A stretch of 64,000 nucleotides of DNA from Salinarimonas sp. (GTDB lineage: Bacteria; Pseudomonadota; Alphaproteobacteria; Rhizobiales; Beijerinckiaceae): the NCBI GenBank assembly GCA_020832565.1, contig JAFIEI010000001.1:186001-250000 (forward strand), in the 5' to 3' direction. A program made the position numbers and the translations under genes. Below are positions 1 through 30,602 of the stretch, one piece after another. The notes under the pieces were generated by a model, which saw only the letters and a list, made by a program, of their open reading frames with translations, ran no database searches and was not told where the DNA came from. Each line of letters begins with the position of its first letter. The first letter of the stretch is position 1.

Positions 1-897
1 GACGATGCCTGGGAGGATATTCTGCGCCGAAAGTCCTTCGGGGCGCTTCCGCGAAAGGATTACCTCGTGGGCGAGGATGCGCACCCGCACGCGTGTGCCG
101 GGTGCATTGTGCAGGGTCGGCAGGAACAGCGGGCCCGTCTCGGTGTCGAGCCGGCTGAGGCCGTCGGGTGAATGTTCGCGCAGGATTGCCGGCAGCATTG
201 CCGCCATCTCGCGTATCCCCATTGCATGCAGGGCCTGCGGGTCGCACATGACTTCGGCCGTCGTTCCCTCGGCCACTACACGGCCGGTTTCGATCACCAC
301 CATGCGATCAGCCAGCAGCTGCGCCTCGTTGACATCATGCGTGACCAGAACGACAGGCATCTCAAGATGCGAACGCAATGCAATGATTTCAGCATAGAGC
401 TTTTCACGGGTCGCACGATCCACCGCCGAGAAGGGCTCGTCGAGAAGCAGCGTCTGCGGTCGCCGGGCGAGGGCGCGGGCGACAGCGACGCGTTGCTGTT
501 GGCCACCCGATAATGCCGCAGGCTTGCGATCGGCGAGACCGTGCAGGTTGACGAGGTCGAGGATACGCTCCGCCTCGCGCATATCGGGGGAATCCATGGC
601 TGCCATCACGTTTCGGGCGGCCGTCATGTGCGGAAACAGCGCGTAGTTTTGAAACACGAGACCCGCGCGGCGTCGGTGCGCCGGGAGGTTCACTCCGGAC
701 TTGCTGTCGAGCCATGTCGAGCCGTCCACTGTGACGCGGGCGGAGGAGGGCAGCCACAGCCCCGCAATCGTGCGCAGTATCGTCGTTTTTCCCGAACCGG
801 AATGCCCTACGAGTGCCAGAAGTTCACCCCGCTCGACGCGGAACTCAATGTCGAGCGGTATCGGCGTCGTGGCCCGAGCCATCACCTCCAGCGCCAT
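1..897 (-). CDS. modC: Molybdate ABC transporter ATP-binding protein (partial, runs off left edge)
   Basis: Minus-strand frame open from 897 to the window edge; Walker [10 protein letters not shown], signature [15 protein letters not shown], Walker [12 protein letters not shown]; start overlaps the modB stop. Not in the ORF track because it is open at the edge. Confidence 0.93.
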
Positions 898-1565
898 CAG
901 CCGAGCCTCCTGCCGACCCGGGCCGATAGGGAGAAGGTCACGGCGATTGTGAACAACGAGATCGCGACGAGAACAGCCGACATGGTCGCGGCCGCATCGG
1001 TATCGAAAGCTTGAACGCGGTCATAGATGGAAATCGCGATGGTCCTGGTCTCGCCCGGTATCGAGCCGCCGACCATCAGGACGACACCGAACTCGCCCAG
1101 CGTATGGGCGAAAGTCAGCACCATGGCCGTCACCACGCCCGGCCAGGCCAGCGGCAGCTCGACCTTCCAGAGCGAGCGCCAGGGCGACATCCCGCAACAG
1201 GCGGCGGCTTCGCGGACTTCTGTCGGAATCGCCTGGAAGCCACGCTGTGCCGGCTGGATGGCGAAGGGCAGATTGAACAGGATCGAGGCGAGCAAGAGGC
1301 CCTCAAAGGAGAAGACCAGTTGCTGGCCGAACATGTTTTGCCAAGCCTGGCCGATGGGCGAATTGCGTCCGAACGAGACCAGCAGGTAGAAGCCGAGCAC
1401 CGTGGGTGGCAGGACCAGCGGCAACATGACCAGTGCTTCGACCCAGGCCTTTCCCCTGAACTGCCGGAAGGCGAGGAACCGTCCCATCAGGATCGATACA
1501 GGCAACAGCACCACGACCGTCCAGATCGCCAGCCTGAGAGACAGTTCGAGTGCCGTCCAATCCAC
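897..1565 (-). CDS. modB: Molybdate ABC transporter permease
   Basis: 222 aa multi-TM permease; EAA-like motif VREAAACCGMSPWRSLWKVELPLAWPGV; between modA and modC. Confidence 0.93.
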   Translation of the reverse strand: MDWTALELSLRLAIWTVVVLLPVSILMGRFLAFRQFRGKAWVEALVMLPLVLPPTVLGFYLLVSFGRNSPIGQAWQNMFGQQLVFSFEGLLLASILFNLPFAIQPAQRGFQAIPTEVREAAACCGMSPWRSLWKVELPLAWPGVVTAMVLTFAHTLGEFGVVLMVGGSIPGETRTIAISIYDRVQAFDTDAAATMSAVLVAISLFTIAVTFSLSARVGRRLG

Positions 1566-1568
1566 GCG

Positions 1569-2384
1569 TCACTCCTGCGGTAAGACGAAACCGTAACGTT
1601 CCATGATCCCGCGTGCCGTCGGCTCCATCAGGTAGGCATAGAAGGCCTCGGCTACCGGGCCGGCATTGTGGAGCAGAACCATGCGCTGGCGTAGCGGTTC
1701 GTGCCAGTCTTCAGGGATCATTGCATAACTTCCCTGCGGCGCGACTTGCGGCGCCAGAGCCAGCGAATACGCGATAATTCCGCCCTCGGCGTTACCCGAG
1801 AGCGCGAATTGCGCCGCCTGACTGACGTTCTCGCCCAGAACGAGGAAGGGCTGAACGTCATCCCAGAGCCCCCTGGTGATCAGGGCCTCGCGCGCGCGCA
1901 TGCCGTAGGGAGCATGCTCGGGATTGGCGATGGCGAAACGCGTCAATCCACCCTCGCCGAGCATGTCGGCAAGGTGGTCCATGTCACTATCAGGGGTGAG
2001 TGTCGAGCCATGCGGCACCATGATCACCACACGGCCAATTCCATACAGATCACCCTCGTTGCGGGTGAAGCCATCGGCGTGAAGATCGGCGACGAATTGC
2101 TCGTCGGCGGCCATGAAGATCTCGAACGGTGCCCCCTCCCGAATCTGCCGGGAGAAATTCCCGGTGGATCCCATCGATAATCGCACGCGCATACCCGTAT
2201 CGGCTTCGAATGCCGTGGCGATTTCCTCGACCGCAAACTGGAGATCCGATGCCGCCGCGACAACCGGGGCCTCATCCTGCGCCAACGCGGGCCAGGCCCC
2301 GACCATGATCGACGAAATGGCCGCCAGAAGAACCTGCCGAACGTAGGCTGACGGCATGTGAGTATCCCTGTTGATATGTTTCAT
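1569..2384 (-). CDS. modA: Molybdate ABC transporter substrate-binding protein
   Basis: 271 aa with signal peptide; VVAAASDLQFAVEEIATAFEADTG...SMGSTGNFSRQI typical of ModA. Confidence 0.93.
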   Translation of the reverse strand: MKHINRDTHMPSAYVRQVLLAAISSIMVGAWPALAQDEAPVVAAASDLQFAVEEIATAFEADTGMRVRLSMGSTGNFSRQIREGAPFEIFMAADEQFVADLHADGFTRNEGDLYGIGRVVIMVPHGSTLTPDSDMDHLADMLGEGGLTRFAIANPEHAPYGMRAREALITRGLWDDVQPFLVLGENVSQAAQFALSGNAEGGIIAYSLALAPQVAPQGSYAMIPEDWHEPLRQRMVLLHNAGPVAEAFYAYLMEPTARGIMERYGFVLPQE

Positions 2385-2421
2385 GGAAAATATCGCAGCC
2401 AGCAGCGGATCGCGTCAATCG

Positions 2422-2793
2422 TTATCGTTTCTCGGGAATATCGCTTAGCCGCGCATTCAACGCCGCGAGCTGCTTTGCCCCTGCTGCGGCGACCTCCCGT
2501 TCAAAGGCCCGATATAGGTCGAGCACCTCGCGCCCGGCTTGCGTCAATACGGCTCCTCCGCCTCCTGATCCGCCTCTGGTGCTTTCGACGACGGGTTCGC
2601 GAAAGGTCGCGTTCAGCGTGCCCACGAGTTCCCAGGCACGCTTGTAACTCATTCCCATCTCCCGGCCAGCAGCTGCAATAGATCCGCACCGATCGATCAG
2701 CTCCAGGAGTTCGGCTTTGCCGGGGCCGATCATCGCGTTCTCGCGGAAAACGATCCGTATTCGCAAGCTGGGGACATCGGAAGCGTCAGACAT
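2422..2793 (-). CDS. modE: ModE-type winged-HTH molybdate regulator (N-terminal DNA-binding domain only)
   Basis: GPGKAELLELIDRCGSIAAAGREMGMSYKRAWELV...GGSGGGGAVLTQAG; start taken at MSDASDV; immediately upstream of modA. No C-terminal molybdate-binding domain. Confidence 0.85.
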   Translation of the reverse strand: MSDASDVPSLRIRIVFRENAMIGPGKAELLELIDRCGSIAAAGREMGMSYKRAWELVGTLNATFREPVVESTRGGSGGGGAVLTQAGREVLDLYRAFEREVAAAGAKQLAALNARLSDIPEKR

Positions 2794-3028
2794 GAACGCA
2801 TGATCCGGCAGAGCACTGAAAAAGACAAGCACGCCGCATTGCCGGATCGTTACGCTGACAGCGCGAACTGCGGGACCTGGCGGAAGCAAAAGGGATGCTT
2901 TCGCCCGGTAATGCCCGACAGGGGGCAGTCAGGAATCGGCGTGACCGGGAAGGTCGATCCGGAACCGATCTGTACCGAATTCCAGGTTTGGTGCCCGGAG
3001 AGGAGCGCAGCAGCGCCACGTTGTGACG

Positions 3029-5326
3029 TCAATGGCCGGCGCCTCTGCGTTTCTTCCTGCTGCCCGGCAGCTTCACGATCGACGAAGGGCTGACATCCTT
3101 CCCCGCCACGATGCGCGTCCAGTTCCTGATGAACCAGGGAATCCGCGTGCCCGGCATCGGCTTTGCATAGAAATACCCTTGCGCATTCCCGCAGCCGAGG
3201 GCCTGCAGATGCTCGGCCTGTTCCCTCGTTTCGACGCCTTCGGCCGTGACGTCGAGATGGAAACTCCGGCCCAGCCCGATCACGGCCTCGACGATCGCCG
3301 CATCGCCCCTGTCGGTCATCATGTCGCGCACGAAACTCTGGTCGATCTTGATATGGTCCACGGGAAAATGCTTGAGGTGCATCAGCGAGGCGAAGCCGGT
3401 CCCGAAATCGTCGAGGGCGATCCGCACCCCGGCATCGTGGAACTGCCGCAGCGTCGCCGAAACCGTTTCCTGGCAGCGCCCCAGGAACACTGTCTCGGTG
3501 ACCTCGATCTCGAGCAGGCTGGCGGGCACCCGATGCTCTTCGAGGACGCGCAAGAAGCGGCTCGCGAGAGCCGGATCGGTATATTCGGCCGACGATGTGT
3601 TAATGGCCACACCGCCGCATTCGAGCCCCATGCCGCGCCATGATTGCAGGTCCGAGGCGATCCGGCGGATCATTGCATTGCCGAAGGCGTTCGCGATCTC
3701 GACATCGGAGAAGACCGATCCGAAGCAGGCCGGCGTCAACAGGCCGTTTGCCGGGCTCTGCCACCGGGCGAGAGCCTCGAAGCCGCTGATACGCCCTGTT
3801 TTCAGGTCGATTTTCGGCTGATAATATGGAGCGAACTCGTGGTTGGCGAGGCCATTGCGGACCTCCTGCAGTATCTGGACCCGTTGGAGCATGGCCTTGC
3901 GGGCAAGGTCGTTGTAGACCACGGCTCGGGTTCGGCCCTCCGCTTTGGCGCGGTAGAGAGCGATATCGGCGTCCTTCATCAGTTCGACGACATCGCGGTG
4001 ATGGTCGGGAAAGGCGGCGACGCCGATGCTCGCCTTCGTCGAGAGCGTGCGGCCTTCATATTCGAAAGTCGTGCGCAGCTGCTCGACGAGGCGCTCGGCA
4101 AAGCGGGCAGCATCGGCCAGGGTGAACGGTGCGGCGACGATGACGGCGAACTCGTCGCCACCGAGCCGGGCGACCGTGTCGCAGGGCCGGACCATGGCCT
4201 TCAGCCGATTGGCTGTCTGTCGCAACAATTCGTCGCCGGCGTCATGTCCGAGCAGGTCGTTCACGTCCTTGAACTCGTCGAGGTCGATCAGAAGCAGACT
4301 GACCGTGCTTGCGTCCGCCTCGGCATTGCGGAGCGCCTGGTTGAGTTCTCTTGTGAAGGCGGCACGGTTGGGCAGGCCGGTGAGATCGTCCTCATTCGCC
4401 ATCCGCCAGATCTCGTTCTCGGCGGCCTTGCGCTTGGTGATATCCGTGAAGGTTCGCACGACACCGCCGCCGGCGACGGGCACGGTCCTGACCTCGAGGA
4501 CCAGGCCGTTGGGTCTTGTACGCTCATAGTCATATCGCGTGGCATGAACAATTACCTTGTCTATGTCTCTTAAAAGTTCCCCCTCTGTAAGTGCGAACTC
4601 CCCTTGCGCCTTTTGAAACGCGACGATCTGCTCAAAACGCGGCTGCGATTCAACGAACCCTGTCGGCAATTCGAGCAGTTCAGCGGCGCGTGCATTGATG
4701 ATGGGAACACGCCCGTCCGCCTCGATCATCAACAGGCCCTGATCCATGGTGGCGAGCGCGATCTGGAGGAAACGGCGTTCCACGCGAATTTCGAGCTCAC
4801 GCATGACCGCACGTGCCAGCGCCTCCAGGATTTCGATTTGGGCTTGCATCTGTCCTTCGGGGCGCTCGACGCGATCCAGGACGCAGATCGTACCCAGCGG
4901 AAGCCCGCCCGGAGTGCGCAGGACGGCACCGGCATAGAACCGGATTCTCGGCTCGTCGGTGACGAGAGGATTGCAGCAGAAGCGGGCATCCCCAGTGGCA
5001 TCGGGAACGATGAACACGCCCTTGTTCAAAATGGCATGCGCGCAAAATGAAATCTCGCGCGGCGTCTCGCGGATCCCCAGGCCGATCGCGCTCTTGAACC
5101 ATTGCGAATGTTCGCCGACGAAGCTGACGAGCGCCATCGGCGCATCGAAGGTCCGGGCCGCGATCCGGGCAATGTCGTCGAATGCCGTCTCCGGAAGGGT
5201 GCCGAGGATATCATACGATTCGAGCGCAGAAAGCCGCTCCTGCTCCGTCCATGCCTGCGCGGACGCGAGCGGGTGCGTGCGGTTCTGTCGGACTGGCCTA
5301 TCCGCATTGCTCATTAGCTTCCCCAA
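3029..5326 (-). CDS. GAF-PAS-GGDEF-EAL protein (bifunctional diguanylate cyclase/phosphodiesterase)
   Basis: 765 aa; N-terminal GAF-like region, PAS, RLGGDEFAVIV with I-site RPCD, EAL domain with FEALARW, EVTE, LDDFGTGF, KIDQSF, AEGVET and AQGYFYAKP all intact. Confidence 0.92.
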   Translation of the reverse strand: MGKLMSNADRPVRQNRTHPLASAQAWTEQERLSALESYDILGTLPETAFDDIARIAARTFDAPMALVSFVGEHSQWFKSAIGLGIRETPREISFCAHAILNKGVFIVPDATGDARFCCNPLVTDEPRIRFYAGAVLRTPGGLPLGTICVLDRVERPEGQMQAQIEILEALARAVMRELEIRVERRFLQIALATMDQGLLMIEADGRVPIINARAAELLELPTGFVESQPRFEQIVAFQKAQGEFALTEGELLRDIDKVIVHATRYDYERTRPNGLVLEVRTVPVAGGGVVRTFTDITKRKAAENEIWRMANEDDLTGLPNRAAFTRELNQALRNAEADASTVSLLLIDLDEFKDVNDLLGHDAGDELLRQTANRLKAMVRPCDTVARLGGDEFAVIVAAPFTLADAARFAERLVEQLRTTFEYEGRTLSTKASIGVAAFPDHHRDVVELMKDADIALYRAKAEGRTRAVVYNDLARKAMLQRVQILQEVRNGLANHEFAPYYQPKIDLKTGRISGFEALARWQSPANGLLTPACFGSVFSDVEIANAFGNAMIRRIASDLQSWRGMGLECGGVAINTSSAEYTDPALASRFLRVLEEHRVPASLLEIEVTETVFLGRCQETVSATLRQFHDAGVRIALDDFGTGFASLMHLKHFPVDHIKIDQSFVRDMMTDRGDAAIVEAVIGLGRSFHLDVTAEGVETREQAEHLQALGCGNAQGYFYAKPMPGTRIPWFIRNWTRIVAGKDVSPSSIVKLPGSRKKRRGAGH

Positions 5327-5589
5327 TCCGGAATGGATTTCGCATCAGGCGATGGGCTTGCATCTCGGGCTGCGCTGGCCGGGATCATGCGCGCGGCATG
5401 TTTCCATCTTCATACCGAGAGCAAGCCGTTGGTAAAGAATGTTAAATCGGCGGGCGACCGGGGCGCGACGTCCCGGTCGGCTGCGGGTCTCCTCGCGGAC
5501 CCCGGGGCGGGTTCCTGTGACAGGACAGGTCCCGACCCGGGGACTTCGCGCGCGATCGAAAGCTCACCGATCGCACCTGCGAAGGCAGA

Positions 5590-7302
5590 TCATGCGGCGC
5601 GAACACGGTTCAGGAAACCGGCGACCGCATTCTTCAGCTCGCCGGCCTGACCGTTCAGGAGCTGGGAGGCGTCGCGCACCTCCGACGACATCTTTCCGGC
5701 TTCTGCAGCGGCTTCCCTGACGCCGGAAATCGCTTCGGAGACGGAGGAGGTCCCGGTCGCTGCCTCGCTGACGTTCCGGGCGATTTCACCGGTCGCGGAT
5801 TGCTGCTGTTCCGCCGCCGCGGCGACATTCGCGGCGCGCTCCGTAATGTCCTTGACCATCACGACGATTCGATCGACCGCCGCTTTCGACAGACCGGCAG
5901 AGGATTTCATTTCACCGATCTGGAGATTGATCTGCTCGGTCGCCTTGCTGGTCTGCTCGGCAAGCTGCTTGACCTCGGTGGCGACCACGGCAAAGCCGCG
6001 TCCGGCCTCGCCTGCGCGCGCCGCTTCGATCGTGGCGTTGAGCGCGAGCAGATTGGTCTTGTCCGCGATATCGCTGATGAGCTCCGTCATTCCCGCGACG
6101 CGCTCGACGACCTGTGCAACGGCATCCACGGCGGATGCCGTCTGGATGGCCTCATCGTTGGCATTGGCCGCAAGGGTGGATGTGCCGTGAATGTCGCGCG
6201 CGACCTCGGTGACGGTGGCGGAGAGTTCTTCACTTGCTGCTGCCACGGCGCCGACATTGGCGCTCGCTTCCTCTGCGGCAGCGGATACCGTGAGAACCTG
6301 ATTGCTGGTTTCCTCGGATATCGCCGACATGGCCACGGCATTGCCGTTGAGCTGTTCGGCTGCGGCGCCGACCTGGGAAATGATTTCGCTGACCGCACTG
6401 TCGAAATCATCGGCAAGCCGCTGCATTTCCTGCTTGCGCCTCTCCTCCGCCCGCGCCTCCGAGGTCGCGGCTTCGTCTTCGAGCTGCTTTGCCCGCAAGA
6501 GCCCCTGTTGAAGGACGAGCGCGGTTTGGGCGACTTCGCCCACCTCGTCTTTGCGATCGGTGTCCGGGATCGCAATATCCAGCTTCCCGCCTGCCAGTTG
6601 CCGCAGGCAGTCGACGATCCGACGCAAGGGCACCGTGATACCGAACTTCGCCACGACGAAGCCGAACAGGCTGCCCGCGAGGGTTCCGATTGCTGCGATC
6701 ACAACCAGCAGCATCGTCTTCGATGCAGCGAGGTCCTGCGCCTCCAAGGCCAATGCGTCGCCGTTCGAATCGGTATACGCGACGAGCTCCGTGAGGGATT
6801 GGCGCAGCAGATTCGCGGCCCTGCGGTTCTGATGCACGATCGCGTTCAGCTGTGCCTGCGCTTGCGAGATATCGCTGTCCTGATGCCGCTCGCCCTCGCG
6901 CAGGAAACTGTCGAGACCGGTGAAATACGCGTCCGCCCGGCTCTCGATGGTATTGATCAATGCGACCTGATTCCCGGTCGCCGTTTCCCGCAGGCGGGCG
7001 AGGCGATCATTGAACATTTCCCTGCTGTCCAGCGCCGCGTCACGGACTTCGCCAAAGCTCGACGGATCAGCGATGATGCGGTACTCGGCTCGCGACATTT
7101 CAATTGCGTTCTGGTTCATGGTCGCAGCAAGCCGCACCTCGTCTGCACCCAGATTGATGCGTTCTGCGGAAGCGGCCAGGGCAATAAAGCCCTGGTAGGC
7201 GACGACTGATATCGTCACTGCAGCCGTCGTCATGATGGCGATGATGAAGCCGATCTTGATTCCAACCGTGAATTTACTAAGCATCATTTCTACTCCCCCC
7301 AA
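5590..7302 (-). CDS. Methyl-accepting chemotaxis protein
   Basis: 570 aa; two TMs flanking a ligand domain, HAMP, signalling hairpin [38 protein letters not shown]. Start may be at 7287 (MLSKF). Confidence 0.95.
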
Positions 7303-7371
7303 GGATTAATGATCAGTTCAGCAATCTCATGGGGGGGCGTTTACGGGTGATTATCTGTTGTTTTAAAAAAG

Positions 7372-7389
7372 TTAAACGGAGCGGTTTAA
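7372..7389. promoter_or_regulatory. Inverted repeat TTAAAC-N6-GTTTAA upstream of the MCP gene
   Basis: ttaaac ggagcg gtttaa, perfect 6-bp arms, about 70-85 bp upstream of the MCP start in an AT-rich intergenic region. Confidence 0.35.
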
Positions 7390-7646
7390 TTGCAAGATGA
7401 TGTTGGCGGAATGCGCGAATACGTGCAAATACTTAAGATTCGATTTGGTGAGTAATTCTTCAATGTTGACTTATTTCGAATAAAAAGTTGCTGGAATTTT
7501 AATTTATTTAAATCTATCGAAAATGTATATCGGCGCTCATCAAAATATATTGATATGTTTTAACTTAGTATATAATTTAATTAATTTGAAAATCACAATC
7601 ATTCTCACTATAGCAATTCTAATGAAAACGCGGTCTTCATTAAAAA

Positions 7647-9659
7647 TTACTCTGTTATCGACAAGCTATAACCATATCCTCGTATTGTCTTGATGTGAAT
7701 AGACTTGTTGGTGTCGATATCTTCGATTTTTCGGCGCAATTTGCTGACGCAAACGTCAAGCGACTTGTCCTGCTTGCTGTAATCCCGCCACAGCACGGAG
7801 CGCGACAATGCCTGGCGCGTCGCAACATGCCCCTCGGCATCCTTAAGGGCGCGCAGCAACAGGATCTCGGCATGCGTCAGGTGCTGCTCGCCCGTAACGG
7901 AAGCAATCAGGCCACGTACCAGATCAAGCGTTATCGCCTTCGATATGGCAACCGTATCCGGAGCGTCGACAGGGGCCCTGCGGCCCAGTGTCCTGAGCAG
8001 GCGCGCCTTGAGCTCACGGACGGAGAAGGGCTTCATGATATAGTCGTCGACGCCGGCATTGATGGCGTCGGCGCGGCTGTCGCTGGTGCCCGCCCCTGAG
8101 ATGATGATCACGGCTGCATCCGTCAGGTCGCGGATGTTCGGCAGGATGTCGAGGCCGTATCCGTCGGGCATCTGCAGGTCGAGAATGACGGCATCATATC
8201 CCGATGCAGGGGGATCACGCAGCCGCTTGAGCGCGTCCTGCAGGCTTGCGGACCTGCTGAACAGGGCGTCGTCGGCGAGCCACATGTTGCAGATCATATC
8301 AGCAACGAGAGGATCATCCTCCACCAACAGGAAGTGGCGGGCCCGGTTCTCTTTCGCTGTATTGCCTGCCGCAACGCCCGTGATCATCGGATCGATGCGC
8401 GTCGCGGCGGCAATCTGCGCCTCGGCGGCGGTTCGGGCCTTCTGGACGAGATCGCGAATGCGGGTCTGCTCGTCCTCATCGCCGAGAATACGCAGCAATT
8501 CGCCATGCGGTACGGGTCGAGCGAAAAGGAAGCCCTGAGCAATATCGAAGCCGAGCGCGCAGACCCGCCCGAGATCCTCGATTGTCTCCACCCCTTCGGC
8601 GACAGCCGTGGCATTGCAGGCATGGGCAAGGTCGACCGAGGCGCGGCAGATGCCGCGTGCGCGCGGATCCGTGGCCATCTCCGCCACGATCGCGCGTTCG
8701 AGCTTCAACTCCGTGAAGGAAAAGCTGCGCAATCGATCGAAAGTAGCATAGGCGGTCCCGAAATCGTCGATGGAAACATCGAGTCCGTGCAATCGCGCGC
8801 GCGTGCTGAAAGCTTCTGCGACGAGGTTGTCGCCCACGTCGTTTTCGGTGATCTCGATCGTGATCGGCACGTCATCACCGAGGCTGCCACGCACCAGGAT
8901 GAGCTGCCGCATGAGATATTCATCGGCCAGCAGGTCGCCGAACACGTTGATCGAGATCCTGACATGCTTTCCGCGCAGCTCTTCACCGAGCAAAGCTGCC
9001 GCGTCGATCGCCGCACCGGTGAGTGCACGCTTCTCCTGCTCTCCCGCCTCCTCGATGAAAAGTGCCGGGGAAAGTATCCCCTTCTGGGGATGGGCTATGC
9101 GCGCCAGCGTTTCGAGGCCGCAGATCCGGCCCGAACGCAGATCGATCTGGGGCTGAAACCAGAACTGCAGCCATCCGGATGCAAGGGCTTCCCGCAGGAG
9201 AGCATTGCCCGGCATGACGTCGATGATCTCCGCCGTGCTCTCCCTAGGATCGGTGCGGCTCGCGAGCAGATCCATCAGGGCCTTGCGGCGGAATGGTTTG
9301 GGAAGCGCACCGAGAACGCGATGCCCGAAGCCGCGCGCGATGCTCGCGGCGCGCTGGAGCGTATCGAGGGAATGCCCGCTGATCAGGATCACGTCGCTGG
9401 ACGAACCCGCCCGGGCCAGTCTGCTCAGAACGTCGATTGCATCGGTATTGCCTAGGGCGAGGTCGATGATCAGCACGGAATATGCGTGTGCCGAAACCTT
9501 TTCGAACGGGTCTGAGAGCCCGTCGATCGCCACCACGTCGTAGGATGTCGCATCCAGCATGCGAACGAGCATTTCACGAATGCCCGGGTCATCCTCGACG
9601 ATGAGGATCGTTTGCGGATCTGGCACGATCGGGGCCGGGGGAAGCCTCTCGTTCATCAT
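7647..9659 (-). CDS. REC-EAL-REC-winged-HTH protein: EAL domain fused to an OmpR-type response regulator
   Basis: 670 aa; REC1 (ILIVEDD...LIIDLAL...LPKPF), EAL domain (GLETLARI, SINVFGD, EITEND, IDDFGTA, AEGVET, AQGFLFARP), REC2 (LLVEDD...VILDLQMPDG...YIMKPF), trans_reg_C wHTH (LTHAEILLLRAL...VCVSKLRRKIE...IKTIRGYGYSL). Confidence 0.93.
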   Translation of the reverse strand: MMNERLPPAPIVPDPQTILIVEDDPGIREMLVRMLDATSYDVVAIDGLSDPFEKVSAHAYSVLIIDLALGNTDAIDVLSRLARAGSSSDVILISGHSLDTLQRAASIARGFGHRVLGALPKPFRRKALMDLLASRTDPRESTAEIIDVMPGNALLREALASGWLQFWFQPQIDLRSGRICGLETLARIAHPQKGILSPALFIEEAGEQEKRALTGAAIDAAALLGEELRGKHVRISINVFGDLLADEYLMRQLILVRGSLGDDVPITIEITENDVGDNLVAEAFSTRARLHGLDVSIDDFGTAYATFDRLRSFSFTELKLERAIVAEMATDPRARGICRASVDLAHACNATAVAEGVETIEDLGRVCALGFDIAQGFLFARPVPHGELLRILGDEDEQTRIRDLVQKARTAAEAQIAAATRIDPMITGVAAGNTAKENRARHFLLVEDDPLVADMICNMWLADDALFSRSASLQDALKRLRDPPASGYDAVILDLQMPDGYGLDILPNIRDLTDAAVIIISGAGTSDSRADAINAGVDDYIMKPFSVRELKARLLRTLGRRAPVDAPDTVAISKAITLDLVRGLIASVTGEQHLTHAEILLLRALKDAEGHVATRQALSRSVLWRDYSKQDKSLDVCVSKLRRKIEDIDTNKSIHIKTIRGYGYSLSITE

Positions 9660-25630: not shown

Positions 25631-25961
25631 TTTGGGTCGGGTCGGGCATAGCTTCCGAATATGCCGTTCGGGATGCGGCGACGGGGCTTCGTGGCCTGGT
25701 CGGAGAGGTTTCTGGAAGGGTCTTGGAAGACGCGTCGATCGCGCATCCGTTACGGTGCGTGAACCCTCGACTGCGCGCTCGCGAGACCATGTTCGGGGCC
25801 GGCATCGCGCGGCAGTGGGGCAGAACAAGGGTGGCGCCAAAGCCGCCCGACGGCGTCATGACAGAGTAAAAACGCGACAAGAGCCGCAACATGCGGCCGG
25901 CGAAGCTTTCCCTGACGAGAGGCAGCTCAGGGGTGCTTTGCCAGACAAAGGGACTAGACAG

Positions 25962-28900
25962 ATGCGGATCGAGCGGCGCTACACCACCACCGGGCAATCG
26001 CCTTATGCGGACATTGCCTTCCGGCTCTCCACCAGCGAGATCCGCAACCCGGACGGCTCGACCGTCTTCAAGCTCGAGAATTTCGAGGTTCCAAAGAGCT
26101 GGAGCCAGGTCGCCTCGGACGTGCTGGCGCAGAAGTATTTCCGCAAGGCGGGCGTGCCGGCGGCGCTGAAGAAGGTCGAGGAGAACGACGTTCCTTCCTT
26201 CCTGTGGCGCTCCGTGCCCGACGAGAAGGCGCTGGCGAAACTGCCGGAAGGCGAGCGTTACGGGCCGGAGACCTCCGCAAAGCAGGTTTTTGACCGCCTC
26301 GCGGGCTGCTGGACCTATTGGGGCTGGAAGGGCGGCTATTTCTCGTCCGAAGACGATGCGCAGGCCTTCTTCGACGAGCTGCGCTTCATGCTGGCCAACC
26401 AGATGGTCGCGCCGAACTCGCCGCAATGGTTCAATACGGGCCTGCACTGGGCCTATGGCATCGACGGGCCGAGCCAGGGCCATTTCTACGTGGATTTCAA
26501 GACGGGCGAGCTGACGCGCTCGACCTCGTCCTATGAGCATCCCCAGCCGCATGCCTGCTTCATCCAGGGCGTGCAGGACGATCTCGTCAACGAGGGCGGG
26601 ATCATGGATCTGTGGGTGCGCGAGGCCCGCCTGTTCAAATACGGCTCGGGTACCGGCTCGAACTTCTCGATGCTGCGTGGCGAGGGCGAGAAGCTCGCCG
26701 GTGGCGGCAAGTCCTCGGGGCTGATGTCCTTCCTCAAGATCGGCGACCGGGCAGCCGGCGCGATCAAGTCCGGCGGCACCACGCGCCGCGCGGCCAAGAT
26801 GGTCGTGGTCGATGTCGATCACCCGGATATCGAGACCTATATCGACTGGAAGGTGCGCGAGGAGCAGAAGGTCGCCGCGCTCGTGACCGGCTCCAAGCTG
26901 TGCAACCGCCATCTCAAGGCGGTGATGAAGGCCTGCGTCAATTGCGAGGCCACGGGCGATGCCTGCTACGATCCCGAGCGCAACCCCGCCCTCAAGCGCG
27001 AGATCAAGCGCGCCCGCCGCGCCCTCGTGCCCGACAACTACATCAAGCGCGTGATCCAGTTCGCCAAGCAGGGCTACAGGGATATCGAATTCGACATCTA
27101 CGACACCGATTGGGATTCGGAGGCCTACCTCACGGTTTCGGGCCAGAATTCGAACAATTCCGTCTCGCTCAAGGACGACTTCCTCAACGCCGTCGAGGCT
27201 GACGGCGAGTGGAACCTGATCCGCCGCACGGACGGCAAGGTCGCCAAAACCGTCAAGGCGCGTGACCTGTGGGAGAAGATCGGCCATGCCGCCTGGGCAT
27301 CTGCCGATCCCGGCCTGCATTTCAACACGACGATGAACGACTGGCATACCTGCCCGGAATCCGGCCCGATCCGCGGCTCGAATCCGTGTTCGGAATACAT
27401 GTTCCTCGACGACACGGCCTGCAATCTCGCCTCGGCGAACCTGCTGCAATTCTATGATCGCGAGGCGAAGCAGTTCGATTTCGGCGGCTATGAGCATCTC
27501 TGCCGGCTCTGGACCGTGGTGCTCGAAGTCTCCGTGACCATGGCGCAGTTCCCCTCTCGCGAGATCGCGCAGCTCTCCTACGAGTACCGCACGCTGGGTC
27601 TGGGCTACGCCAATATCGGCGGCCTCCTGATGACCATGGGCCTGTCCTACGATTCGGATGAGGGCCGTGCGCTCGGCGGCGCGCTCACCGCGATCATGAC
27701 CGGCGTGGCCTATGCCACCTCCGCCGAGATGGCGGGCGAGCTCGGGCCGTTCCCCGGCTACAAGGCGAATGCGCAGCACATGCTGCGGGTGATGCGCAAC
27801 CATCGCCGCGCGGCTTATGGCGAGGCTGACGGCTATGAGGCGCTCAACGTCAACCCCGTCCCGCTCGACCACGCCTCCTGCCCGGAGCCGATCCTGGTCG
27901 AGCGTGCCAAGCGCGCCTGGGACGAGGCACTGGTGCTGGGTGAGAAGCACGGCTACCGCAACGCCCAGGCGACCGTGATCGCGCCGACCGGTACGATCGG
28001 CCTCGTCATGGATTGCGATACCACGGGCATCGAGCCTGATTTCGCGCTCGTGAAGTTCAAGAAGCTCGCCGGCGGCGGCTATTTCAAGATCATCAACCGC
28101 GCCGTTCCGGACGCCCTGCGGGCGCTGGGCTATCGCGAGCATGAGATCGCCGAGATCGAGGTCTACGCGCTCGGTCACGGTTCGATGGCGCAGGCGCCGG
28201 GCATCAACCCGCAGACCCTGAAGGCCAAGGGCTTCACCGACGAGATCATCGCCACGCTCGAAGGTGGCATGAAGGCGGCGTTCGATATCAAGTTCGTCTT
28301 CAACAAATGGTCGATCGGCGAGGATTTCCTCACGGGTACGCTCAACGTCCCGGCGGAGAAGCTCAACGACCCGTCCTTCGACCTGCTCGCGCATCTCGGC
28401 TTCACGAAGGACGAGATCAATGCTGCCAATATCCATATCTGCGGGGCGATGACGCTGGAAGGTGCGCCGCATCTCAAGGAAGAGCACTATCCGGTCTTCG
28501 ATTGCGCCAATCCCTGCGGGCGCGTCGGCAAGCGCTATCTCTCGGTGGAGAGCCATATCCGCATGATGGCGGCGGCGCAGCCCTTCATCTCGGGGGCGAT
28601 CTCCAAGACCATCAACATGCCCAACGACGCCACGGTCGAGGATTGCAAGAGCGCCTACATGCTCTCCTGGCGCCTCGCCCTCAAGGCGAACGCGCTTTAT
28701 CGCGACGGCTCCAAGCTCTCGCAGCCGCTCAATTCCGCGTTGATCGAGGATGATGCGGATGAGGACGAGGATGCGGTCGATACCGTTGATCGTCTGCTCG
28801 AATCCGCGGCCCCCGCGCGCGCCGCGCAGGTGGCGGAGAAGATTGTCGAGCGTGTGGTCGAGCGCGTGGAGCGCATCCGGGAGCGCGAGAAGATGCCCGA

Positions 28901-29681
28901 TCGCCGCAAGGGCTATACGCAGAAGGCGGTCGTCGGTGGCCACAAGGTCTATCTGCGCACGGGCGAATACCAGGACGGGCGCATCGGCGAGATCTTCATC
29001 GACATGCACAAGGAGGGCGCGGCCTTTCGGGCGATGATGAACAACTTCGCCATCGCGATTTCGCTGGGCCTGCAATACGGCGTGCCGCTGGAAGAATACG
29101 TGGAGGCCTTCACCTTCACGCGCTTCGAGCCGGCGGGCTTCGTGCAGGGCAACGAATCGATCAAGAACGCGACCTCGATCCTGGATTACGTCTTCCGCGA
29201 GCTCGCGATCTCCTATCTCGGCCGCTACGACCTCGCCCATGTCGACCCTTCCGAGATCGGCCATGACGTGCTCGGCAAGGGCGACGACCAGTCCAAGCTC
29301 TCCGCCACGGCGGCGAAGTATGTCTCCAAGGGTTTCACCCGCGGCAAGACGGACAAGCTGATGCTGATCGATGGCGGTTCGCACGGCGGCACGGGCGCCA
29401 CCGTCGTCACCGCTCTCTCGGCCCAGGGCGCCACCGCGCTCAAAAGCGAGCCGGTGGTGGAGCAGGACATGGAGGAAGAGGGCGCCGACCTCTCCGCGCT
29501 GGGCTTCTCGGCGCCACGGGTCGACACCTCCGCCGGCATGACCAAGGCCGACAAACGCGCCGAGGCCCGCATGAAGGGCTACGAAGGCGAAGCCTGCCCC
29601 GAATGCGCCAACTTCACGCTGGTGAGGAACGGGACCTGCATGAAGTGTGATACCTGTGGGTCGACGACGGGGTGTTCGTGA
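25962..29681 (+). CDS. nrdJ: Vitamin B12-dependent (class II) ribonucleoside-diphosphate reductase
   Basis: 1239 aa from [67 protein letters not shown]-terminal [28 protein letters not shown]. Confidence 0.96.
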
Positions 29682-29710
29682 GGGTCACCTCATACACGTA
29701 AAGACGACAG

Positions 29711-29736
29711 CGCCCCGGGAAACCGGGGCGTTTTTT
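29711..29736 (+). terminator. Rho-independent terminator of nrdJ
   Basis: cgccccggg-aa-accggggcg-tttttt: GC stem followed by a T6 tract, 30 nt after the nrdJ stop. Confidence 0.9.
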
Positions 29737-29937
29737 CTGTGGGCGTGCAGCACTGCATCATGTGCAACCGGCGAAAACGCGCAAGGCGTCAATTACGCAA
29801 CCTCCACCCGCAACGCATCCACCTGCCCGATAATTCCATCCAGCCGCCCGACCGCAATATCGGAGACGGTGCGCAGGGCGCCACGATCGGGATCGGGCAT
29901 GGCGAAGAGGGCGAGGTCGAGGGCGTGGAGGATGGCG

Positions 29938-30076
29938 CGATCCGCTGATCAGCGCGCGCATCCCGCAGGAGGCCATTGATGCGCTGGAGGCGATCGCTGC
30001 GCGCGAGGGCGAGACGCGCTCGACACTGGTTCGTCGGGCGATTCTCGAATGGCTGAGAGGGCAGGGGCGGCTTTAA
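29938..30076 (+). pseudogene. Remnant of a ribbon-helix-helix (CopG-like) protein, no start codon
   Basis: Frame reads ...LISARIPQEAIDALEAIAAREGETRSTLVRRAILEWLRGQGRL* ending at the taa; RHH-like strand-helix-helix pattern but no upstream in-frame start or N-terminus. Confidence 0.45.
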
Positions 30077-30158
30077 CCCTGCGGACGATTTGTGGGCCTT
30101 TGCAGGGTGAGAGCGCCCGCCTGCTCAGACTGATCGACGCCATTCGACGACGCCATTC

Positions 30159-30206
30159 GACAAGGGGTTCGACAAGGGGTTCGACAAGGGGTTCGACAAG
30201 GGGTTC
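30159..30206 (+). repeat. Tandem repeat, 4 perfect copies of 12-mer GACAAGGGGTTC
   Basis: Read directly: gacaaggggttc x4; preceded by two copies of cgacgccatt. Confidence 0.97.
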
Positions 30207-30385
30207 GCCCCGCATCACACACACCCACCCTTAATCCCCCGCCTCAGGGGAGGTGGGTCTGTCACGCGCTCTATGGAGATTTTCCCTCAGGGACCAGCAG
30301 AGGTGGCGCGCGAAAAGCTCGGTCGCGACGCTCGACCAGCGTTCGTGGGCAGCCGGTTTCTCGCTTGCGCAATATGGGAATTCAG

Positions 30386-30460
30386 TGGTGAGTGCGCGGG
30401 GATTCGAGCCCTGGACCACTGATCAATAGTCAGTTGCTCTACCGACTGAGCTACGCGCTC
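30386..30460 (-). tRNA. Degenerate tRNA-Lys-like gene (anticodon ATT; probable tRNA pseudogene)
   Basis: GAGCGCG TA GCTC AGTCGGTA GAGC A ACTGA CTATTGA TCAGT GGTC CAGGG CTCGAAT CCCCG CGCACTC A CCA. Cloverleaf with C4.A69 and A50.C64 mismatches, C54 in the T-loop, 4-nt variable loop, encoded CCA. Confidence 0.7.
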
Positions 30461-30602
30461 GACGGGCGTGGACTTAAGGCATCGGGGCGGCGGGGGCAAT
30501 AAGTCCAACGCTTCATGCCACGCAGCGCCCCTCTCCCTCCGTGGAAAGAGCAGTCATGCGTTATTTTGGGACGAACATCTCGTCGCGCGGGCCTATCGCC
30601 TC

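Follow-up and report, generated by a model that had tools for sequence, protein, structure and literature searches.

A lysine tRNA body with an asparagine-type anticodon

We analysed a 64,000-nucleotide stretch of a Salinarimonas sp. genome (contig JAFIEI010000001.1, positions 186,001 to 250,000; hereafter "the window"), in which a tRNA-like copy with the anticodon ATT, one rarely used by bacteria, lies at positions 30386-30460 on the minus strand. A preliminary description made from the letters alone had noted this anticodon within a Lys-like body, and both points hold: ARAGORN calls a tRNA-"Asn"(ATT) on the minus strand at the same coordinates, and the sequence aligns to tRNA-Lys(TTT) with seven changes, sharing the G1-C72 end pair and A73, whereas the genome's own tRNA-Asn(GTT) has U1-A72 and G73. 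The features of the locus are:

30386-30460, minus strand: very probable pseudogene derived from tRNA-Lys(TTT), with seven changes relative to its parent and read as tRNA-Asn(ATT)
30461-30499, minus strand: duplicated 5' flank of the tRNA-Lys locus with a promoter remnant, from alignment to the parent locus
30310-30385, minus strand: duplicated 3' flank of the tRNA-Lys locus, with its counterpart at G000:C26:132759-132833 (G000 being the source genome)
29739-30582, no strand: junction segment of 844 bases without a counterpart in the congener G003, except for the tRNA-Lys copy

The source genome (4.09 Mb, 110 contigs, 99% complete) holds 44 tRNA matches, and a count of intact lysine tRNA genes, suggested in the preliminary description, gives one tRNA-Lys(TTT) and one tRNA-Lys(CTT), next to one tRNA-Asn(GTT). 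The tRNA-Lys(TTT) gene (G000:C26:140708-140780) is perfect and single-copy, and with 77.9 bits against Rfam RF00005 it is the top-scoring tRNA of the genome; the copy reaches 57.8 bits (E 1.6e-11), well over chance and over the 29-bit gathering score. Exactly seven changes separate the two: U17C, U34A, A37G, the loss of a variable-loop G (44-46), U54C, U64C and G69A. They produce the stem mismatches C4-A69 and A50-C64, which together with C54, G37 and a variable loop one base short make up the defects in stems and conserved bases. All but G37 had been listed before, correctly, as had the retention of A73 and CCA; also missed were a mutated -35 box and the extension of the tRNA-Lys match through both flanks.

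U34A creates the AUU anticodon, and A37G removes the adenosine that is modified to N6-threonylcarbamoyladenosine (t6A) in tRNAs for codons starting with A. The copy thus has AUU with G37, not the UUU or CUU with A37 of a tRNA-Lys, and it lacks the U1-A72 and G73 of a tRNA-Asn; judged by its sequence, its body is that of tRNA-Lys and not of tRNA-Asn. The identity bases of LysRS are U35, U36 and A73, all of which are retained along with the CCA end. LysRS would still see these bases, and the copy could conceivably mistranslate if it were expressed and stably folded. The predicted cloverleaf energy is -18.0 kcal/mol for the copy versus -29.2 kcal/mol for the parent, and the best predicted fold of the copy, at -23.3 kcal/mol, is no longer the cloverleaf.

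The duplicated piece and its parent locus

The match between the window copy and the tRNA-Lys(TTT) locus is 191 bp long (30310-30500): besides the gene it takes in 39 bp on the upstream and 76 bp on the downstream side. The upstream part carries a promoter remnant that reads TTGCCC, a 17-nt spacer and TAAGTC, 10 nt from the tRNA. The -35 element is TTGACC in the parent and in three congeners and is common across the family, whereas its fourth base is changed in the copy; the upstream differences between copy and parent number three, all of them derived in the copy. This argument is based on the aligned TTGACC-N17 element and not on a sigma-70 scan, which found no promoter either at the copy or at the real tRNA-Lys gene.

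On the downstream side, an element of about 7.9 kb (G000:C26:132837-140708; L039 about 830-8705) has inserted into the real gene at its 3' end, and the parent's counterpart of the 3' flank is now found on the far side of the element's attR. Since the window copy retains the empty-site arrangement, it appears to predate this insertion or to derive from a chromosome that lacked the element. We considered a tRNA-targeted integrative element as the carrier of the copy and rejected it, because the copy keeps the 5' flank together with the 3' flank as it was before the insertion, and is thus not an attL or attR product. The 7.9-kb element itself encodes a tyrosine integrase (Arm-DNA-bind_3, Phage_integrase) and an AAA_25 ATPase, and two of its open reading frames look terminase-like by eye, without a Pfam family match; it is possibly a phage satellite. 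The neighbouring tRNA-Thr(GGT) also holds an insertion, shorter than the first (L039 12409-14924; G000:C26:144409-146923), with a gene for a C-5 cytosine methylase and, at the far end, another tRNA-Thr-like copy.

Divergence inside and outside the gene

Copy and parent differ at 7 of 76 positions within the tRNA and at 10 of 115 in the flanks (Fisher p = 1.0), and this equal divergence means that no selection on the tRNA of the copy is detectable. The true tRNA-Lys(TTT) gene is identical at 76/76 positions in the three congeners, whose upstream flanks differ; because the parent's tRNA is unchanged, all seven changes fall on the branch of the copy. Three of them fall in columns that do not vary among 30 tRNA-Lys sequences, where random placement would put 4.7 (P = 0.16), so that significant avoidance of invariant columns is not observed.

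Occurrence in relatives and beyond

Conservation in relatives, another check raised in the preliminary description, points the same way: among 298 family genomes, a Lys-like stem with CTATTRA, that is, a Lys-body ATT tRNA, occurs in the source genome only and is absent from the other 297. Relatives with a match have one tRNA-Lys(TTT)-type match each. The downstream flank of the tRNA-Lys locus was not found in the other 198 family genomes searched, which places the duplication, most simply, within this species' own lineage.

A scan of GTDB species for a Lys-like D-arm with a CTATTRA loop, which may leave out near relatives of the window, returned one match, on an unrelated Bacteroidales contig (L072 55-128). 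This tRNA is read as Asn(ATT), has a poorly paired anticodon stem and is probably another pseudogene. ATT-anticodon tRNAs were also seen in each of three viral contigs (L105 4924-4999, L106 923-993 and L107 572-642), which carry 13-20 tRNA genes per fetched stretch, the ATT copies of L106 and L107 being identical; an A34 Asn-type tRNA is unusual in phages. We dismissed phages as the source of the window copy, as the viral ATT tRNAs, set in these large arrays, have A37 and different stems.

A probably derived chromosomal junction

The copy lies within the junction segment, whose left neighbour is a class II ribonucleotide reductase gene (25632-29681) and whose right neighbour, from 30583 onward, is conserved in the congeners G001 and G003. 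In the near-complete G003 (3 contigs), the left side maps to C2:983-985 kb(+) and the right side to C2:1789-1790 kb(-), about 0.8 Mb apart, with the true tRNA-Lys at C2:1242 kb. The G003 partners of both sides lie elsewhere in the source genome (C94:52 kb and C90:11-14 kb). Because G001 shares the right-side arrangement of G003, the window junction is most simply read as the derived one. No tRNA-Lys trace was found at the fetched other ends of the rearrangement.

Also within the junction segment, a 12-bp unit, TTCGACAAGGGG, occurs four times in tandem, with an imperfect final copy (window 30156-30215), and short gene-like stretches lie at 29860-30080. One of these, on the minus strand, has weak matches elsewhere in the source genome and in G003; another resembles, by eye, the end of a ribbon-helix-helix gene. 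Both are apparently fragments at the junction. An SgrS match at 29600-29737 was set aside as chance, being weak, under the gathering score and overlapping the end of the reductase gene and the hairpin that follows it.

Origin and fate of the copy

We conclude with high confidence that the locus holds a dispersed duplicate of tRNA-Lys(TTT), made at or near a rearrangement while the parent stayed intact, and now a neutrally drifting pseudogene. Specifically, 191 bp of chromosome, running from the promoter of tRNA-Lys(TTT) through the gene into the first part of the 3' flank, were duplicated, and the copy would have been placed, in the lineage of this species, between two newly joined chromosome segments; the position of the copy suggests that the rearrangement itself may have made it. 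Because the parent gene remained intact, the copy would have been under no selection and would have drifted at the neutral rate. The drift would have cost it the optimal -35 element, T54, a base of the variable loop, pairing at two places in the stems and, in the anticodon loop, the original wobble base and base 37, so that AUU would be one random change among others. The Asn-type anticodon is almost certainly a product of decay, and the copy is presumably poorly transcribed or silent, its RNA absent or degraded. An intact parent in the same genome, a divergence that is the same inside the gene and in its flanks, and defects in stems and conserved bases are all marks of a tRNA pseudogene. The decaying duplicate proposed in the preliminary description is likewise borne out by the flank-sharing paralogue, the damaged promoter, the lost cloverleaf optimum and the absence of the ATT copy in relatives.

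Several observations weigh against this conclusion. The neutrality test is small, with 17 differences in total, and compatible with weak selection; the link between copy and rearrangement is one of position; and CCA, A73, most tertiary bases and a score of 57.8 bits are retained, which would make the copy a young pseudogene that could still yield some folded RNA. A lysine-charged tRNA that reads AAU and inserts Lys at Asn codons would make use of the retained U35, U36, A73 and CCA end, and AAT is a normally used codon (57 AAT versus 72 AAC in eight window genes). This reading is nevertheless highly improbable given the two stem mismatches, C54, the t6A site lost with G37, the weakened -35 element, the neutral divergence and the lack of conservation; moreover, wholesale Lys-for-Asn replacement would be harmful, and an active version should be counterselected. 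We give scarcely any credence to a remoulding into a new Asn acceptor for AAU: although the anticodon is formally Asn and so named by ARAGORN, the body keeps the lysine end pair and discriminator, G37 sits in the anticodon loop, no further Asn-like change is seen, and tRNA-Asn(GTT) makes a second AAU reader unneeded.

Recruitment to regulation has a precedent in tRNA-Other of Bacillus cereus, a tRNA-like RNA encoded next to a genomic island that acts outside translation and alters gene expression (PMC3399842), but the window copy occurs in one genome and diverges like its own flanks, which makes such a role most unlikely here. Nothing supports either Lys-at-Asn decoding or the non-translational role that had been considered in the preliminary description. 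Low-level transcription with lysine charging, giving a trickle of Lys at AAU or a tRNA-like regulatory RNA in one species, is very unlikely. As for the copy being the real tRNA-Lys gene misread or misassembled, a draft genome of 110 contigs would permit it, but 17 differences across 191 bp and distinct, unique neighbours on both sides within a 292-kb contig leave it a negligible probability.

Comparison with known systems

The neutrally drifting tRNA-Lys copy is an ordinary finding, one more tRNA pseudogene, and its location where synteny breaks offers a minor hint of the way in which tRNA copies spread. It also calls for caution in annotation: at 57.8 bits it would be listed as a tRNA-Asn(ATT), and it is the comparison of flanks that reveals a drifting tRNA-Lys copy, so that gene-versus-flank divergence offers a simple method for sorting such cases. 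Like the tRNA pseudogenes and isotype-mismatch calls of tRNAscan-SE 2.0 (PMC8450103), the copy combines an Asn anticodon isotype with a Lys body and has damaged paired stems and conserved bases; unlike them, it still scores 57.8 bits in the general Rfam model, and may pass in a pipeline for an ordinary tRNA-Asn. In Pseudomonas fluorescens SBW25 (PMC7661048), the tRNA gene set likewise gains a copy by chromosomal duplication, but there the duplications span 45-290 kb and are selected for dosage, whereas here we see a decaying, dispersed copy of 191 bp. With tRNA-Other (PMC3399842) the copy shares a tRNA-like sequence unfit for translation; yet tRNA-Other is transcribed, is present in some other Bacilli, has a Trp anticodon and shows a deletion phenotype, whereas the window copy has the anticodon AUU and is confined to one of the 298 family genomes.
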